From NCBI GenBank assembly GCA_903832475.1, contig CAILBQ010000569.1, positions 1 through 36,146 on the forward strand: a stretch of DNA of 36,146 nt, written 5' to 3'. The position numbers and the translations under genes were made by a program. Below, one piece after another: positions 11,485-30,887 of this stretch; the stretch's first letter is position 1, and each line of letters opens with the position of its first letter. The stretch comes from an uncultured Acidobacteriota bacterium (GTDB lineage Bacteria > Acidobacteriota > Terriglobia > Terriglobales > Acidobacteriaceae). The notes below the pieces were generated by a model. The model searched no databases. It was given only the letters and a program-made list of their open reading frames with translations, and was not told where the DNA came from.

Positions 11485-12900
11485 CTAAATTCTGGGACGC
11501 GAGAAAATGCGCTGTAAAGCGATGCCGCCAGTCGCGAACAGGATGGGGAAAAACTCCAGGGTGTAGCGCGTCTCCGGAGCCTCGATGGTGAGCAGCAGCA
11601 GGCTGCGCAGCACCAGGTAGGCGGCCATGTACGGCCATAGACGCGGCCGATACAAAAAGCCCGCCAGCCCAAGCAGCAGGAAAAGCAGATTTACCCCGGC
11701 ATAGGCCCAGCTGAAGCGGGTTTCCGGCCGGTGTTGGCTGTACTGCCACCAATACAGGTCGATGGTGAGATTTTCGACTCGCGGACGCAGGGTCATGTCG
11801 GCCAGGCGTCCGAGAGGCAGAAGGACCGCGTCGCGTAACGGGTGATCGGCGGCGCGCTGACGGGCCAGGGCTTCGAAGCGCGCGTCGAGTGCTGGCGTCA
11901 GGTCCTGATTCTGGTTGTAGTCGGCGACCAGGGCGCTGGTCTGCTGCTTCTGCTGCGGGGAGTCGAAGGCTCGTTCCGGCAGCTGGTTGAAATCGAGCGG
12001 ACTGTCGGGGACATTCCAGTACACATCCTCGGTGCAGGCAAAATCCAGACACCAGGTCTTGACCCAGTGCTGCCAGCCGAGATGCGGATCCTCGCCGGGA
12101 TCGTTGGCATAGCGCGGAGCGAGCGGCTCGAAGACATGGAAAGTGTGCCAGTTGCGGCCGGCCCAGACGGCGAAGGGCAGAACGGAAAGCAGTCCGCAAA
12201 GCATGGCCGGACGCAAGGCGCTGGACAGCGAAATTTGAGAGCCACGAGCAAGAATCAAGGCCGGCCACAAGGCAAATGCCAGTAATGCTCCGTCGGGGCG
12301 AAGCATGGCGGCGCTGCTGATAGCCAGGGTGAAGAAGACCCAAAACAGCCGGGAACTCTCGCCGCGGGCACTGGTGCCAGGGTTCCGGCTTTCCAGAATG
12401 CGCTGCAGCGACCAGAGGGCGAGACAGATCATGTCGAAGGTGAGCGACTCGGTCAGAGGCGCGGAAGCATAGACCGCGGTGAAGGGGCACATCGTCGCCA
12501 GCCACAGCGCATTCAACCCGGCGCGCGGCGTGCTGATGCGTCGTACAAAATCGGCCAACAGGACGCACGCACCCAGTTCCAGGAAGATCTGCAGATAGCC
12601 CACGCCGGTGTACTGATCGACGCCGAAGACGGCGAAGCAGGCAGCCAGAAATAGCGGGTAGCCGGGCAGGCGAATCAGTGACGAGTGGATCACGCCGCTG
12701 CCGTCGGTGATGGCGAACTGGCCGTGCAGAAGCAGATTTTTTGCGAAGTTGCCGTAGATCAGCGCGTCACCCTGTCCCTGCGGGAACGCCCGCCACATCC
12801 ACAAACGAAGAACCAGCCCTCCGATGAGGGCGGCCAGGCCTCGCCAGACAAGGCGGGAGGGCCAGCTTACACTGATAAAAGGAGTGGGCGTCGATTTCAT
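11485..12900 (-). CDS. GT-C superfamily membrane glycosyltransferase (GT39/ArnT-like)
   Basis: 471 aa multi-TM; QGDALIYGNFAKNLLLHGQFAITDGSG...RLPGYPLFLAACFAVFGVDQ matches GT39/PMT-like loop motifs. Confidence 0.75.
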   Translation of the reverse strand: MKSTPTPFISVSWPSRLVWRGLAALIGGLVLRLWMWRAFPQGQGDALIYGNFAKNLLLHGQFAITDGSGVIHSSLIRLPGYPLFLAACFAVFGVDQYTGVGYLQIFLELGACVLLADFVRRISTPRAGLNALWLATMCPFTAVYASAPLTESLTFDMICLALWSLQRILESRNPGTSARGESSRLFWVFFTLAISSAAMLRPDGALLAFALWPALILARGSQISLSSALRPAMLCGLLSVLPFAVWAGRNWHTFHVFEPLAPRYANDPGEDPHLGWQHWVKTWCLDFACTEDVYWNVPDSPLDFNQLPERAFDSPQQKQQTSALVADYNQNQDLTPALDARFEALARQRAADHPLRDAVLLPLGRLADMTLRPRVENLTIDLYWWQYSQHRPETRFSWAYAGVNLLFLLLGLAGFLYRPRLWPYMAAYLVLRSLLLLTIEAPETRYTLEFFPILFATGGIALQRIFSRPRI

Positions 12901-13181
12901 GCGCGTCCGCCCGCCAGATTTGCTGTCGCTTTTGGATTTCCTGCCGCTCGACTCATCGTGAGCGCGACGAAATTTTTCGAAATCGCCGGCCGCACTCCTG
13001 AGCGTAACGCCTTGTTCGTGCTGAATTTGGGATTTCTTCCTGCCTTGAATTGACGCACCGTACCTGCTTTCATACGATTCGAGTGTAACCGTGGACGCGG
13101 CTTGTGTCGGAGTCTGCCTAGCCCCAAGTGTCTGCGAGTGTTCGCGCCGGCTAACCCCAGTTCTTCGACCAAAGGCCCCCC

Positions 13182-16100
13182 ATGCCCGACCGCCAGATCT
13201 TCTTCGACCCGCAACGCAAACGCTGGAAGCGCCTTCGCCGCATCCTCGACATTTCCGCTGTCACCTTTACCGTGGTCGTGGCCATCTTCATCTTCAACGT
13301 GCTGCGCCAGCAGCATCTGCCGGAGTTGCTGCTGCCATCGCCCAAGCACAACTACAAGGCGATCAGCGACCGGCAATCCGATTTGATGCGCGCGGAGCGG
13401 GCCAAGGAAAAGCCGGCCCGTCGAAAGACCAATCGCAAGGCTTCCGACGTTCCCTTCAATTCCGGCGAAGGCATTCGCGCGGCGTACTATCGGCCCGACG
13501 ACGCGGCCAGCTACTCCACGTTCAAAGAGCACGTCCACCAGATCGACATCGTGTTTCCCATGTGGCTGCATGTTTCGCAGCCGGACGGCAACCTTATGGG
13601 CGAGAGCAGCGACGATACGCGCGAATACCGCCTGGTCGACGAACACGGCGTGCATGATCCCGACGATCTGAACAAGATCAAGAATGTGATTTCGGCAGCC
13701 AAGGAAAACACCGAGATCTTTCCCAACCTGAGCAGCTACAATCCGCAAAATCACAGCTTCGACCCAGCCATCGGCACGATCGTTCTCGACCCGGTCAAAC
13801 GCCAGGAATTGCGCAGGCAGATCATGGCGTTCTTTGCCGGGATGCCCGCCTATCGCGGATTGTCGCTCGATCTCGAAAACTTCCCAGACAATGCGCAGGA
13901 CGCCTATCAGCAATTCATCCAGGAACTTTACGCGGATATGCACGCTCGCAATCTGCGGCTTTATGTCAACGTCGAAGTTTCCGCCGATGATGACATGCTC
14001 AAGCGCATGGCCGCCAACTCCGACGGCCTCATCCTCATGAATTACGACGAGCATGAGGTAGAGAGCGAACCAGGGCCGATCGCCTCGCAGACCTGGTTTC
14101 TGAACAACCTCAAGCGCGTGTTGAAAGACGTGCCCAAGGAAAAAATCGTCTGCGCGCTGGGCAATTACGGCTACGACTGGACCATGTCCATTCCCGACCC
14201 TAAGGACAAGAAGCATCCCAAGCCAAAGATCGTGAACACGGAAGACCTCTCCGTGCAGGAGGCCTGGCAGCGGGCAGCGGACGCGGACGCCGATCTCGAT
14301 CTTGATTACGATTCGTTGAACCCGCACTACTCGTTCATTGACGAGGACAAGCACATTCGCCACGTGGTCTGGTTTCTTGACAGCGTGACCACGCTGGACG
14401 AAATGCGGGGCGCACGAGAGCTGGGCATTCAGACGTTTGCGCTGTGGTCGCTGGGCCAGGAAGATCCTTCGACCTGGGCAATCTGGGACAAGCCCAGCAG
14501 TGCGGACGCCTTGACGGCCCTGGGCAGCGTTGCGCCCGGTCATGATGTCGACGATGAAGGCACCGGGGATATCATCCGCATCACCAACACTCCGAAGAAC
14601 GGCAAGCGCGTCGTGCAACTGGATACGGACGAACCCGATCTACGCCGCAGGCTCATCATCGACGAGCACATGGATACGTATCCTGCCGGCTACCGGATCG
14701 AGCTGTACGGCTATCATCCAACCCAGGTGGCGCTGTCCTTCGATGACGGTCCCGATCCAGCGTGGACACCGAAGATCCTCGACATTCTGAAGAAGAAGAA
14801 CGTCAAGGGAACGTTCATGCTGATCGGCTCGCAGGCGCAGGAGAACGTGGGCTTGATGCAGCGCATCGTGCGCGAAGGCCACGAGATCGGCAATCACACC
14901 TATTCGCATCCGGACATCAGCGAAATTTCAACACGCCAGCTGCAGCTCGAGTTGAACCTGACCGAGCGGCTTTTTGTCAGCAAGCTTGGCATTCAGCCGC
15001 TCTACTTCCGACCGCCCTATGACATCGACGAAGAGCCTGATACGGACGATCAGGCCGAGCCAGCCTATCGCGTTCAGCAGATGGGATACGTCATTGTCGG
15101 CAACAAGATCGATACCGATGACTGGAACGAGCATCCCCGCAAGACGCCTCAGCAAATCACTTCCTCGGTGCTGGAGCAGTTGGACAACCGCAAGACCAAT
15201 CCGCAGTTTCAGGGCAGCATCATCCTCATGCATGACGGCGGCGGCAATCGCGCACCCACGGTTGCGGCGCTGCCCGTCCTGATCGATGCGCTGCGCGCGC
15301 GCGGTTTTGAAATCGTGCCCATATCGCAGCTGATGGGCAAGACCACGGCGGAGGTCATGCCCAAGATCACCGGCATGCAGTACTGGCGCGCACGGGCCGA
15401 CTCGGTTGCTTTCAGCATCCTGTCCCTCTTTGGACATTTCGTGGTGTCAGTTTTCTTCGTGGGCGACGTATTGATGAGCGCGCGACTGATCCTGGTCGGC
15501 GTGCTGGCCATCATTGACCGCCTGCGCGGACACAAGCCGGGCAATCCGGCATTCACGCCGCCTGTGGCTGTCCTGGTACCCGCGTACAACGAAGAAACGG
15601 TCATCGTTCGCACGGTACGTTCGGTGTTGAATTCCACCTATCCTGACCTGCACGTGGTGGTGATCGACGATGGCTCGAGCGATCGCACTTCCGAAGTGGC
15701 TCGGGACGCTTACGGCCCCGAGATTGCCGCGGGCAAAGTGGCTGTGCTGACCAAAGCAAATGGAGGCAAGGCGGCCGCGTTGAATTACGCCGTCGAGCGG
15801 CTTACAGAAGAGTTCTACGTAGGGATCGATGCCGATACCGTGATTGCGCCCGACGCCATCGCCAAGCTGATGCCGCATTTCGAAGATCCCCTGGTAGGCG
15901 CCGTTGCCGGCAATGCCAAGGTAGGCAATCGCGTGAACCTGTGGACGCGCTGGCAGGCGCTTGAATACATCACCAGCCAGAATTTCGAGAGGCGCGCGCT
16001 CAATTTGTTCAACGTGGTCACCGTCGTTCCCGGTGCCATCGGCGCGTGGCGCACCGGGCCGGTTCGCAAGGCAGGCGGCTATCCGCTCAACACCGTAGCC

Positions 16101-16712
16101 GAAGATGCCGACCTGACCATGAGCCTGCTGGAGCAGGGACTGAAAGTCGTGTATGAAGACCGTTCGCTGGCCTTCACCGAGGCGCCGATCGACGCTAAGG
16201 GCCTGATGCGGCAGCGATTCCGCTGGTCCTTTGGCACGCTGCAGGCGGTGTGGAAGCATCGTGCTGCCTTCACACGCAACAAGGCTATGGGGCTGTTCGC
16301 ACTGCCGAATATCGTGGTGTTTCAGATGCTGCTGCCGCTGGTGTCACCGTTCATCGACTTGATGTTCCTGGTCGGCATCGGGCAGTTTCTCTGGGACCGC
16401 TATTATCACCCCGATGCGGCGAGCGCGGACAGCTTCGAAAAGCTACTGGCCTACTTCCTTACGTTCATGGTCATCGATTTTGTGACGTCGGCCGTGGCGT
16501 TCAGCCTGGAACGAAAGCATCCGGCCAACAAGGGCGATGGATGGCTGCTGTTCCATATCTGGCTGCAGCGATTCGCGTACCGACAGGTGTTTTCAGTGGT
16601 GCTGTTCAAGACGGTGAAGCGAGCTATCGACGGGCGGCCATTCAACTGGGACAAGATCGCACGCACTGCCAAGATGAGCAAGCAGACAGACAAGCTGATC
16701 GAGGGCGTCTAG
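13182..16712 (+). CDS. Trifunctional GH18-like / NodB polysaccharide deacetylase / GT2 (PgaC/cellulose-synthase-like) fusion
   Basis: 1176 aa. N-terminal TM; GH18 beta4 motif GLSLDLEN; NodB motifs LSFDDGPDP, HTYSHP, YFRPPYD, MHDGGG; GT2 motifs VLVPAYNEE, DDGSSDRT, GIDADTV, EDADLT, QRFRW; C-terminal TMs. Confidence 0.93.
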   Translation: MPDRQIFFDPQRKRWKRLRRILDISAVTFTVVVAIFIFNVLRQQHLPELLLPSPKHNYKAISDRQSDLMRAERAKEKPARRKTNRKASDVPFNSGEGIRAAYYRPDDAASYSTFKEHVHQIDIVFPMWLHVSQPDGNLMGESSDDTREYRLVDEHGVHDPDDLNKIKNVISAAKENTEIFPNLSSYNPQNHSFDPAIGTIVLDPVKRQELRRQIMAFFAGMPAYRGLSLDLENFPDNAQDAYQQFIQELYADMHARNLRLYVNVEVSADDDMLKRMAANSDGLILMNYDEHEVESEPGPIASQTWFLNNLKRVLKDVPKEKIVCALGNYGYDWTMSIPDPKDKKHPKPKIVNTEDLSVQEAWQRAADADADLDLDYDSLNPHYSFIDEDKHIRHVVWFLDSVTTLDEMRGARELGIQTFALWSLGQEDPSTWAIWDKPSSADALTALGSVAPGHDVDDEGTGDIIRITNTPKNGKRVVQLDTDEPDLRRRLIIDEHMDTYPAGYRIELYGYHPTQVALSFDDGPDPAWTPKILDILKKKNVKGTFMLIGSQAQENVGLMQRIVREGHEIGNHTYSHPDISEISTRQLQLELNLTERLFVSKLGIQPLYFRPPYDIDEEPDTDDQAEPAYRVQQMGYVIVGNKIDTDDWNEHPRKTPQQITSSVLEQLDNRKTNPQFQGSIILMHDGGGNRAPTVAALPVLIDALRARGFEIVPISQLMGKTTAEVMPKITGMQYWRARADSVAFSILSLFGHFVVSVFFVGDVLMSARLILVGVLAIIDRLRGHKPGNPAFTPPVAVLVPAYNEETVIVRTVRSVLNSTYPDLHVVVIDDGSSDRTSEVARDAYGPEIAAGKVAVLTKANGGKAAALNYAVERLTEEFYVGIDADTVIAPDAIAKLMPHFEDPLVGAVAGNAKVGNRVNLWTRWQALEYITSQNFERRALNLFNVVTVVPGAIGAWRTGPVRKAGGYPLNTVAEDADLTMSLLEQGLKVVYEDRSLAFTEAPIDAKGLMRQRFRWSFGTLQAVWKHRAAFTRNKAMGLFALPNIVVFQMLLPLVSPFIDLMFLVGIGQFLWDRYYHPDAASADSFEKLLAYFLTFMVIDFVTSAVAFSLERKHPANKGDGWLLFHIWLQRFAYRQVFSVVLFKTVKRAIDGRPFNWDKIARTAKMSKQTDKLIEGV

Positions 16713-16733: not shown

Positions 16734-16764
16734 AGCCTGGTCAAGCTTCCACGCTGACCAGGCT
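16734..16764. repeat. 10-bp perfect inverted repeat between convergent genes (possible 3'-end stem-loop)
   Basis: AGCCTGGTCA (16734-16743) - 11 nt - TGACCAGGCT (16755-16764); overlaps the stop codon of the minus-strand gene. No strong U-tract. Confidence 0.5.
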
Positions 16765-17418
16765 GCCTTTGGACTGCAGGTAGGCAAGCGCCGGGCCTGC
16801 GGTGCGGATGCCGGCCGCCAGGTTTGCCTTCAACGCGGAGACCAGGGTTTCGTACGGGCTTTGCGCCGACGTTGTGCCTGCCGACGATTCCCCATTTCCA
16901 TAGGCTGTATTCAAGAACGCAACCAGGCTGCTGACCGAGTCATTGGCAGCGGCGCCGGAAGGGGCATTCGACCCTGGAGGCAGCAACAGCGCCTGCACCA
17001 GATTGAGCTGCAATTGACTTTGCACCTGGCTGCTCTCGAAGGTCGGATTCGTCGTAGCAGACTGAGCCGGTGAAGAGGCTGCCCGAAGATTCGCGGAGGA
17101 GCTCGTGGCGTTCAGGTAAGTTGCAAGCGCAGCCTGAGCGTCAGTGAAGCTCCCAGTCTCCAAGGCCGACCCCACTCCGGAAAGCAGCGCTCCCAGAGCG
17201 CTGTTCTGCGCCGGGCTGGTGGGAGAGATGGCGTCCAGCGCGTGCAGCAGGGATTGGCTGGAAGTCAGATCTCCCGCAGAAATCGCGGTCTGCAACTGGC
17301 TCAACAGGCTGTCAAAGGCCGTTTGCGGGGCAGACGCGTTGCCCGTGCTGGTGTAGTTGATCGTAGAGACGACGCTCGAGACAGGAAGGATAGCCAAGGT
17401 GCTCATGGTGAACTCCAT
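16741..17418 (-). CDS. Hypothetical Ala/Ser-rich protein with internal helical repeats
   Basis: MEFTMSTLAILPVSSVVSTINYTSTG...; repeats FDSLLSQLQTAISAGDLTSSQSLLHALDAI and LGALLSGVGSALETGSFTDAQAALATYLNA. Confidence 0.6.
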   Translation of the reverse strand: MEFTMSTLAILPVSSVVSTINYTSTGNASAPQTAFDSLLSQLQTAISAGDLTSSQSLLHALDAISPTSPAQNSALGALLSGVGSALETGSFTDAQAALATYLNATSSSANLRAASSPAQSATTNPTFESSQVQSQLQLNLVQALLLPPGSNAPSGAAANDSVSSLVAFLNTAYGNGESSAGTTSAQSPYETLVSALKANLAAGIRTAGPALAYLQSKGSLVSVEA

Positions 17419-17557
17419 CGCTTGCCTGGGCCAGTCTTCTTTTGGGCCAGCCCTCAGGAGTGACAAGCATTCCTGTGAATTGTTTCGGCAATCGAGACAG
17501 AAACTTTAGCCGGGATCGCGAAATATTGCGCGGCCGGGATTCGCGGCACCCTTAAAC

Positions 17558-27650: not shown

Positions 27651-27711
27651 CAAAATTCCCAAAATGGGCCGCTGGAGGCATGCACCGCTCACCCGCTACA
27701 CTGAGAAAGCT

Positions 27712-29379
27712 ATGAACAGGCCCATCCTTCTCGCGGTAGACGATGACATCAGTGTTCTGGAGGCGGTCGTTCAAGATCTTCGCCGCCAGTATGGCTCCAC
27801 GTACCGTGTGATTCGCGCGGGCAGCGGCCAGGCTGCCTTGGATACGTTGAGCCAATTGAAGTCCCGCGACGAAGCCGTGGCCCTGCTGCTCAGCGACCAG
27901 CGCATGCCCGGCATGACCGGCGTCGAATTCCTTGAATCCGCGCAAAAGATCTATCCCCATTCCAAGCGGGTCCTGCTGACGGCCTACGCCGATACCGAGG
28001 CCGCCATTCGGGCCATCAACACGGCTCGCATCCACTATTACCTGACCAAGCCGTGGGATCCGCCTGAAGAAAAGCTGTATCCGGTCCTCGACGATTTGCT
28101 GCAGGACTGGAATGCCGGGTACCAGCCGAAATTCGAAGGACTGCGAGTGATCGGTCACCGCTGGTCGTTGAAAGACCACCAGCTGCGCAGCTTTCTCTCG
28201 CGCAACCATGTGCCCTACCGCTGGCTCGATGCGGCAGCCAGCGAAGACGCTCAGAGACTGCTGTCCGAAAAATCGCTCGATCCCGAAGCGCTGCCCGTAG
28301 TTCTGTTTTCGGATGGCAGCGCGCTGGTCGATCCCGAACAGGATGCTCTCGCGGCCCGGGTCGGTTTGCGCACCCAGGCGGCCCAGGATTTCTATGACAT
28401 GGTGGTCATCGGCGCCGGTCCGGCCGGTCTGGCGGCTGCTGTCTATGGAGCATCCGAAGGGCTGAAGACCCTGGTCATCGAGCCCGATGCCCCGGGCGGG
28501 CAGGCGGGATCGTCCTCACGTATTGAGAATTACCTGGGGTTCCCCTCCGGCATCAGCGGCGCCGACCTGGGACGCCGCGCGCACATGCAGGGAGTTCGAT
28601 TCGGCGCTGAGTTCCTCACCCAGCGGGCTGTCGGCCTCCGCGTGGACGGGCAATACCGCTTCGTGGTGATGGCCGATGGACGGGAAGTTTCCAGCCACGT
28701 CCTGCTTTTGGCTACCGGCGTGAATTACCGTAAATTGGACATTCCCGGAGCCGATCTGCTCACCGGCAGGGGCATTTACTACGGCGCGGCGCTGGTCGAG
28801 GCTTCCGCCTGCAAGGATGAAAACGTCTATATCGTTGGAGGCGCGAACAGCGCCGGACAGGCTGCCTTGCACTTCGCGAAATTTGCCTGCACGGTAACGA
28901 TGCTGGTGCGCGCCGACAGCCTGGAAGCAAGTATGTCGAAATACTTAATCGATGAGATCGCCCGCACATCGAATATAGTAGTCGAACCGAACACTCAAGT
29001 TCTGTCGGCCGAAGGCGAGGAACATTTGCACGCCATTTGCATCCGCGGTCCGCAGGGGCAGGCACGTCGTGAAGCGAGTTCCCTCTTCGTGTTCATCGGC
29101 GCTGTTCCGGGAACTGAGTGGCTGCCGGATGTCATGCTTCGGGACGAAAAAGGGTTTGTGCTGGCAGGACCCGACCTGACCACGCCGGAAATGAAGGCGC
29201 AGGGAAAGTTTGCCAGGCTGTGGAAGGAACGACGGGATCCCTTCCTGCTGGAATCGAGCGTGCCGGGGATCTTCGTGGCCGGGGATGTACGCCATGGTTC
29301 GGTGAAGCGGGCTGCCTCGGCAGTCGGCGAAGGGTCGATTGCCGTGCAGTTTGCCCATCAGTATCTGGCAAGTTTTTAG
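27712..29379 (+). CDS. Response regulator receiver fused to thioredoxin-reductase-like FAD oxidoreductase
   Basis: REC: LAVDDDISVLE, LLLSDQRMPGMTG, YLTKPWD; middle thioredoxin-like linker; FAD: DMVVIGAGPAGLAAAVYGASEGLKTLVIEPDAPGGQAG; second Rossmann VYIVGGANSAGQAA; GIFVAGDVRHGSVKR. Confidence 0.9.
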   Translation: MNRPILLAVDDDISVLEAVVQDLRRQYGSTYRVIRAGSGQAALDTLSQLKSRDEAVALLLSDQRMPGMTGVEFLESAQKIYPHSKRVLLTAYADTEAAIRAINTARIHYYLTKPWDPPEEKLYPVLDDLLQDWNAGYQPKFEGLRVIGHRWSLKDHQLRSFLSRNHVPYRWLDAAASEDAQRLLSEKSLDPEALPVVLFSDGSALVDPEQDALAARVGLRTQAAQDFYDMVVIGAGPAGLAAAVYGASEGLKTLVIEPDAPGGQAGSSSRIENYLGFPSGISGADLGRRAHMQGVRFGAEFLTQRAVGLRVDGQYRFVVMADGREVSSHVLLLATGVNYRKLDIPGADLLTGRGIYYGAALVEASACKDENVYIVGGANSAGQAALHFAKFACTVTMLVRADSLEASMSKYLIDEIARTSNIVVEPNTQVLSAEGEEHLHAICIRGPQGQARREASSLFVFIGAVPGTEWLPDVMLRDEKGFVLAGPDLTTPEMKAQGKFARLWKERRDPFLLESSVPGIFVAGDVRHGSVKRAASAVGEGSIAVQFAHQYLASF

Positions 29380-29400
29380 TTTTTGGAGAGATGCGCAGCC

Positions 29401-29457
29401 ATGACGTTCGAAGATCTGGATCGGCGAATTGAGGAGACTGCGCAGGCAGAGCGATGA
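29401..29457 (+). CDS. Possible 18-aa micro-ORF between REC-TrxR and kinase genes
   Basis: ATGACGTTCGAAGATCTGGATCGGCGAATTGAGGAGACTGCGCAGGCAGAGCGATGA = [24 protein letters not shown] just upstream; its TGA overlaps the kinase ATG (ATGA). Confidence 0.35.
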   Translation: MTFEDLDRRIEETAQAER

Positions 29458-30887
29458 ACACCAGCGAAGTACAGGAACCCAGCACGCAAACCATCGTCTT
29501 GAGCGATTACGCCGAGCAACTCAGCCATGTCGCAGCCTTCGCCGACGTTTCCCCGGATGAGCTCTGCGGACTGACCTCGGCCGAGCTGATCAAGATGCCT
29601 ACGAACGGCACGATTCTCGATCCCAATAATCCTGTGCGCGCCTATTGGGTTGTTCTCGAAGGTGAAGTCTGCGCCGACCGCGTCGAGCAGGATGGTTCCC
29701 TCACCCGCATCGGCATCGCCAAGGAAAACGAGACATTCGGAGAAGTCGTTCTGCTCGCCGGCAAGTCGCCGACCGTGCGGGTTCTGACCGCCAAGCCATC
29801 CGTTCTTTTGCGCTTTTCAGAAGACGCTTTCTGGAGCCTGATGGCCTGCTGCCCTCCTGTGCGCAAAGTCATCCTGTCGCACATGGCGCAGCGTTTGCAC
29901 GCCTACCAGGCCGAGGCGGCCCATCGCGAAAAACTGATTTCCCTAGGCACGCTGGCGGCGGGCTTGATGCATGAGTTGCATAATCCGGGTTCGGCCGCCA
30001 AGCGCGCCGCGTCGCAGTTGCGTGCCAACCTGCTGCGCCTGCAGGAGTTGAGCCTGCGCTTCTGCGAACATGAAACCAGCCGCGACCAGATTTCCTGCAT
30101 GCGCGAGCTCCAACTGGAAGCGATCGCCCACGCCAAATCCTCCACCATGAGTTCCCTGGAACAGTCGGACGCTGAAGAATCGATGGGTGAGTGGCTGGAA
30201 ACAGCCGGCGTCGAGAATGCTTTCAAGATCGCCCCAACCCTGGTCAGCATTGGCCTCGATCCGCAGGAACTGGTGTGCATACGCGACGCTTTTGCCGGTG
30301 ACGGGCTTTCGGATGCTCTGAACTGGCTGGAAGCGCTGGTCTCCAGCGTTTCGCTCGTCGAGGCCGTGGAGGAAAGCATCTCGCGCGTTTCGGAACTGGT
30401 CATGGCGGTCAAGAAATTCGCCTACGACGATCGCTGCACCCTGCGCGAAGTCGACGTGCACGACAGCATTCAGAGCACGCTGACCATTCTCGGCCACAAG
30501 ATGCGTCAGCGCCAGATCCGTGTCGTCAAGCACTTTGACGCCGCCCAGCCGAATATCCGCACCACTGGCGTAGCCATCAGCCAGGTCTGGACCAACCTGA
30601 TCGACAACGCCATCGATGCCTCTCCCGAAGGCGGCCAGATCGATGTGCGCACGTGGACCGAGCCCGGCTACCTGGCGATCGAGGTAACCGACCACGGAGC
30701 GGGAATTCCCGAAGACCTCAAGGCACGCATCTTTGAGCCGTTCTTCACCACCAAGCCGGTCGGAAAAGGCACCGGTCTGGGCCTGGAAATCGTTCAGCGC
30801 ATTGTGACGCAGAGCTTTGGCGGCAAGATCGAAGTCGAGTCGAAGCCGGGTGAAACGCAATTCATCGTTCGCCTGCCGCAGTCGTAG
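29454..30887 (+). CDS. Cyclic-nucleotide-binding-like domain plus sensor histidine kinase
   Basis: N-terminal jelly-roll ([40 protein letters not shown]); H-box [30 protein letters not shown]-box [15 protein letters not shown]-boxes [25 protein letters not shown]. Confidence 0.9.

Follow-up and report, generated by a model that had tools for sequence, protein, structure and literature searches.

The question raised by the locus described here is whether a single membrane protein may synthesise, export and tailor a polysaccharide, and whether it does so without the help of other genes. The window, that is the whole 36,146-nucleotide stretch of DNA analysed (contig CAILBQ010000569.1 of assembly GCA_903832475.1, from an uncultured member of the family Acidobacteriaceae, phylum Acidobacteriota), carries a gene whose product combines a glycoside hydrolase of family 18 (GH18), a NodB-type deacetylase of carbohydrate esterase family 4 (CE4) and a processive glycosyltransferase of family 2 (GT2). 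In our assessment this fusion protein probably synthesises, secretes, partly deacetylates and trims poly-N-acetylglucosamine (poly-GlcNAc), with a second protein of the GT-C glycosyltransferase fold, encoded divergently upstream of it here, probably adding a sugar in Acidobacteriota. Polymers of this kind are central to biofilm adhesion, and the coordination of deacetylation with cutting is acknowledged as an open point of the Pga field in two papers (PMC7112194, PMC5933820); where one polypeptide unites making, deacetylating and cutting at the point where the polymer leaves the synthase, this coordination should become accessible via mutants of a single protein.

The preliminary description of this DNA, made from its letters alone, had presented the gene as one polypeptide with three intact catalytic domains, and this is borne out by the reading frame, by Pfam, profile and fold matches and by the conserved motifs. 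The open reading frame (ORF) at 13182-16712 of the forward strand runs uninterrupted from an ATG over 1176 amino acids (aa), with no internal stop, and the ATG at 13182 was taken as the start because the N-terminus is conserved, F7 and R14 being invariant in an alignment of 90 full-length sequences. This set includes Alphaproteobacteria, one Prevotella and one Deinococcus at 31-37% identity, the lowest value being about 31%, and conservation spans the entire length of the protein, the N-terminal motif included. The best matches come from Acidobacteriaceae, with a top identity of 83% in Acidicapsa dinghuensis; altogether, reference genomes yielded 70 loci at 54-83% identity, each from Acidobacteria or a member of that group. 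The parts of the gene are the following, with the evidence in brackets.

13182..16712, + strand: whole gene in the order transmembrane segment, GH18, NodB/CE4, transmembrane region, GT2, transmembrane segments, 1176 aa (ORF, Pfam, alignment, profile, AlphaFold2 model, Foldseek)
13182..13298, + strand: N-terminal motif FFDPQRKRWKRLRR, predicted to be cytosolic and with F7 and R14 unchanged in all phyla compared, then the first transmembrane helix, aa 21-39 (alignment, hydropathy)
13464..14519, + strand: predicted periplasmic GH18 of SleL/YdhD type, about aa 95-446, with D230/E232, MxYD at 286-289 and W422 (profile, alignment, fold, PF00704 matches of relatives)
14709..15341, + strand: predicted periplasmic NodB/CE4 deacetylase, about aa 510-720, with the NodB1 motif order MT1-MT5 (Pfam, alignment, fold)
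15405..15515, + strand: transmembrane region, aa 742-778, predicted to lead the chain back to the cytosol (hydropathy, long helix 731-780 of the model)
15540..16265, + strand: predicted cytosolic core of the processive GT2, about aa 787-1028, with D829/D830, D883/D885, E974-D975 and QRFRW at 1011-1015 (Pfam, alignment, fold)
16287..16629, + strand: C-terminal transmembrane and interface helices, about aa 1036-1149 (hydropathy, model helices of low confidence)

Two of the three domains are recognised by Pfam far above the cut-offs, NodB (PF01522) with 102.5 bits and GT2 (PF13641) with 119.3 bits. In the deacetylase (D521, D522, H572, H576, R610, D647-W648, H684) the catalytic aspartate, the metal-binding Asp-His-His set and motifs MT1 to MT5 are all present and invariant, while the polymerase possesses the full set of processive motifs, namely D, DxD, (T/A)ED and QxxRW (the last as Q1011-R-x-R-W1015); catalytic residues of both domains are unchanged in 90 out of 90 full-length sequences. 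The AlphaFold2 model, reliable between residues ~80 and ~740 and of low confidence in the C-terminal transmembrane part (predicted local distance difference test, pLDDT, below 50), retrieved with Foldseek the GH18 structure 5jh8 (template-modelling score, TM, of 0.83 by target length), the NodB-type deacetylase Bc1960 (TM 0.82) and, for the GT2 part, hyaluronan and cellulose synthases.

The hydrolase of the query alone falls under the Pfam reporting threshold, and its excised region gave no match to PF00704, so that it is the profile, the relatives and the fold that place it in GH18. Over residues ~150-430, the profile made from 47 relatives matches YdhD (3cz8, E 1.9e-24), the Chromobacterium chitinase 5jh8 (8e-24) and YaaH/SleL (1.6e-18), and relatives from Deinococcus, Sphingomonas, Prevotella and two Acidobacteriaceae pass the PF00704 cut-off by themselves. 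The motif GLSLDLEN, a shortened DxE form with S at 228, agrees with the initial view of a DLE-type domain with retained catalytic Glu, and further residues M286, Y288, D289 and W422 can be placed. D230 is invariant in the 90 sequences and E232 in all but one of them; the exception is encoded on a plasmid of Sulfitobacter faviae (locus L120, 5632-9003), where E232, M286, D289 and W422 are all changed and the NodB and GT2 sites are intact. A gene with a DUF3131 domain lies downstream of this relative. One more GH18 match, on contig C609 (L002), was considered as a second fusion and rejected, being a separate SleL-like protein.

Hydropathy places transmembrane segments at 21-39, 742-778, 1036-1062 and 1088-1106, with exact limits of low confidence. 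Basic residues precede the first segment, GH18 and NodB follow it, and beyond the long helix of the model come the GT2 core and the C-terminal helices, which fits the topology outlined previously (a membrane segment, periplasmic domains, a return to the cytosolic transferase and final membrane segments). Since GT2 enzymes depend on nucleotide sugars of the cytosol, GH18 and NodB together would be held in an external loop between the first two transmembrane segments of the synthase, and we infer that they sit at the polymer exit, outside the cytosol.

The architecture is widespread and is neither rare nor specific to this window. Among 396 Acidobacteriota genomes it was detected in 69, comprising 43 of 44 from the host family and 26 from other families, and the range extends to Alphaproteobacteria, Bacteroidota and Deinococcota through plasmid records of Sphingomonadaceae, Sulfitobacter, Prevotella nigrescens and Deinococcus, annotated there merely as “glycosyltransferase”. 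Unfused counterparts also exist: a plasmid of Paenibacillus cellulositrophicus (L124, 4119-11749) has separate genes for deacetylase, GT2, deacetylase and GH18 in a row, and in Kocuria a NodB-GT2 gene adjoins a chitinase gene, which supports the action of the three domains on one substrate. In Sphingomonas and Sphingobium the fusion genes (L117, 4780-14553; L118, 5752-12453) have MprF and AcvB/VirJ-type genes as flanking neighbours, which points to a joint programme for a cationic surface.

The immediate neighbourhood of the gene contains the second member of the proposed system.

11485..12900, - strand: divergent partner, a polytopic PMT_2-like glycosyltransferase of GT-C fold, 471 aa (synteny, profile co-occurrence, fold)
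12901..13181, no strand: intergenic region of 281 bp between the two divergent genes, presumed to be a shared regulatory region (spacing; promoter scan at chance)

The partner has a weak PMT_2 match (27 bits), and its AlphaFold2 model (pLDDT 87) retrieves AglB, OST/STT3, ArnT and PMT with modest TM values of 0.36-0.48 by query length; the GT-C fold is accompanied by an invariant D45 in the first external loop, which we take as the likely catalytic residue. The divergent upstream position is held in 84 of 88 host-family loci having at least 1.2 kb of upstream sequence, while the surrounding serS-lolA context is preserved in only about two thirds of the family (SerRS in 31/47 loci, LolA in 35/50). 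A profile of 13 members, run against the same 396 genomes, revealed the partner in 53 of the 69 fusion-bearing genomes and in none of the 327 fusion-free ones (Fisher p 7e-52 overall and 4e-14 outside the host family, values which ignore kinship of the genomes and thus overstate). The subfamily is discrete, given that members score 1e-88 or better and the next-best homologues 1e-31 or worse, once fragments and a single duplicate in one of the fusion carriers are set aside. In six genomes (five of family f5 and G299, none used for the profile) the partner is located on a different contig from the fusion, and in family f22 it can sit downstream, on the same strand. The sole host-family genome without fusion, G388, lacks the partner as well, and the 16 fusion carriers without partner mark it as an accessory, not a universal component; outside Acidobacteriota, where only plasmid records were searched, it gave no match. 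One-gene synthesis and tailoring, initially named as a possibility, is consequently doubtful for this phylum, where the fusion is probably not a one-gene system. The co-occurrence appears to be previously unremarked. In part of family f22 (L138, L140, L156, L158, L159) the neighbours of the fusion are a class I tRNA synthetase gene, probably for IleRS, and a gene for a large sigma-54 activator that carries TPR repeats; the activator is a possible regulator of the partner-less variant.

The fusion gene itself appears to be monocistronic, and a shared operon was rejected: its upstream neighbour diverges from it and the ORF that comes next lies on the opposite strand. Scans for promoters and terminators around it, the 281-bp spacer included, gave nothing above chance.

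Taken in order, the proposed process would start with polymerisation of UDP-GlcNAc by the cytosolic GT2, the chain passing through the transmembrane channel of this same domain. At the periplasmic exit NodB would remove acetyl groups from some residues in the course of secretion and GH18 would trim or cut the chain, its catalysis needing the N-acetyl group. The expected outcome is poly-GlcNAc with part of its acetyl groups removed, a cationic character and a controlled chain length. In most Acidobacteriaceae the GT-C transferase would then probably use a lipid carrier as the donor of a further sugar for the polymer or its anchor in the periplasm; enzymes of this class (ArnT, PMT, AglB) take lipid-linked donors outside the cytosol, and it is on this ground that decoration or anchoring is proposed for the partner.

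Comparison with known systems locates the fusion between several of them. Its GT2 scores best with other fusions, then with the NodB-GT2 proteins of Streptomyces and Kocuria (215-217 bits), followed by E. coli PgaC (121), NodC (92-94) and BcsA (50), and the best NCBIfam model is that of PgaC/IcaA (TIGR03937, 163 bits), whose cut-off of 422 is not reached. Among proteins that lack GH18, those like MatB are closest to the query and share the arrangement of a NodB1-type extracellular CE4, a transmembrane segment and a cytosolic PgaC-like GT2 in one chain, so the query may be considered a variant of this type with an extra GH18; MatB differs in lacking that domain, in belonging to a monoderm host and in its partner MatA, which is another kind of membrane protein. 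The product of Streptomyces MatB (SLI_3306/SCO2962) was assigned to poly-N-acetylglucosamine (PNAG), being dispersin-B-sensitive, anti-PNAG-positive and chitinase-resistant (PMC4391728, PMC5972031). A NodB-GT2 fusion thus has a precedent with an assigned product, and the preliminary description has to be amended on this point.

E. coli PgaB and PgaC provide the same three activities, with deacetylase and hydrolase periplasmic and a related GT2 (29%, 121 bits), but as separate proteins, PgaB being a NodB2 domain followed by GH153, whereas in the query GH18 is N-terminal to NodB1. The comparison with the PgaB deacetylase/hydrolase drawn at first needs correcting: no similarity between the query NodB and GH18 and E. 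coli PgaB was detectable, and the NodB2 arrangement (MT5 N-terminal, no MT4) is absent, since the query and all fusions tested show the NodB1 order MT1-MT5 with DW. A fused PgaB-PgaC is ruled out on the same differences in NodB class and hydrolase family. Rhizobial NodB (NodB1, 31.9%) and NodC (a chito-oligosaccharide synthase, 28-29%) are also related, though as short separate proteins producing oligomers without any GH18, and the spore proteins SleL/YaaH and YdhD of Bacillus, top sequence and fold matches of the query hydrolase with its catalytic DxE and MxYD, are free cortex enzymes outside any synthase.

Each domain as well as the NodB-GT2 fusion is already known, and the three-domain form is present in databases. 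A survey of exopolysaccharide (EPS) operons reports divergent clades of Gram-negative pgaB in which a GT domain is fused on and the operon has neither pgaA nor pgaD (PMC7112194), meaning that relatives of the fusion were glimpsed earlier; there the GT is N-terminal and the canonical hydrolase domain absent, and the text consulted contains neither an identification of GH18-NodB-GT2 nor a description of a partner. Experimental study of the GH18-CE4-GT2 form was not found in the open literature, most subscription papers lying outside this search.

Four observations weigh against the synthesis of partly deacetylated poly-GlcNAc as proposed above. The characterised PNAG deacetylases of the surveyed set (PMC10967932) are all NodB2 and the query is NodB1. 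The draft source genome, 88% complete, yielded no PgaD and only partial, sub-cut-off TPR matches to PgaA, which offers no route through the outer membrane and argues against a complete Pga system. The soluble EPS of two Granulicella strains is reported to be a hetero-polysaccharide without acetate signals, amino sugars not being among the standards (PMC5259719), which cautions against assuming abundant PNAG. Finally, loss of the GH18 site alone in Sulfitobacter implies that hydrolysis is separable and, judging from sequence, that this site is dispensable there; GH18 thus looks like a tailoring element rather than an essential step.

The linkage is where the strongest alternative lies. A chitin- or chitosan-like β-1,4 product, as in the making of the Nod-factor backbone by NodC and NodB, with GH18 as a true chitinase-type trimmer, overlaps with the preferred reading and deserves serious consideration, though we place it somewhat below an even chance; on this view the similarity score of the GT2 to PgaC would mislead. 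It draws on the NodB1 class, to which every characterised chitin or peptidoglycan deacetylase in the survey belongs, in contrast to PgaB/IcaB, on the proximity of GH18 to chitinases and spore-cortex β-1,4 glucosaminidases, and on a Pfam Chitin_synth_2 match weakly over the cut-off (35 bits). The β-1,6 linkage is favoured by the higher score of the GT2 with PgaC than with NodC and by the MatB precedent, in which NodB1 deacetylases accompany PNAG. A GT2 tree intended for PgaC versus NodC ancestry left most deep forks unresolved and was not used. Partly deacetylated poly-GlcNAc or a chito-polymer, named in the preliminary description as possible, is in either case supported as the likeliest product.

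An unlikely alternative is a periplasmic or envelope-anchored glycan, where peptidoglycan or an anchored chain would be the substrate of GH18 and NodB, and the GT-C protein would attach or decorate the glycan. The want of an outer-membrane export partner in the draft genome, the resemblance of both domains to peptidoglycan-active SleL and PgdA-type enzymes and the donor preference of the GT-C class speak for it; a processive GT2 is not required for peptidoglycan, and the MatB-type fusion, albeit of a monoderm host, yields a polymer outside the cell. Still less probable is GH18 as a binding or length-measuring module with only deacetylase and synthase being catalytic: the Sulfitobacter relative indicates that some lineages can do without hydrolysis, but conservation of D230 and E232 in 89 of 90 relatives is hard to account for without catalysis. 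That the partner merely reflects conserved gene order and shared ancestry with no function is the least probable reading, for although gene order near serS/lolA is kept in much of the host family, the genomes are related and 16 carriers lack the partner, its location on separate contigs in six genomes, the existence of two different gene orders, its absence from all fusion-free genomes and the joint loss in G388 argue otherwise.

Returning to synthesis of poly-GlcNAc by the fusion and its GT-C partner, we suggest, as a tentative proposal with the odds against it, that the two constitute a distinct widespread system in which partly deacetylated poly-GlcNAc bearing a sugar from a lipid carrier would leave the cell without PgaA/PgaD, a glycan type undescribed in Acidobacteriota. 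For these abundant soil bacteria with poorly known envelope polymers the two genes offer a concrete pair for the study of surface glycans, and the Sulfitobacter relative provides a natural GH18-dead control.

Elsewhere in the window, a 241-aa ORF at 16741-17466 (- strand) matches no Pfam family, lacks homologues in related loci and is perhaps specific to the lineage or not a true gene. In the segment 17558-19381 two long ORFs, of 601 and 597 aa, overlap on opposite strands, with a weak cytochrome c match on the - strand. At 27664-30887 a response-regulator domain and a thioredoxin-reductase-like oxidoreductase form one fusion, after which comes a histidine kinase that carries a cyclic-nucleotide-binding domain.

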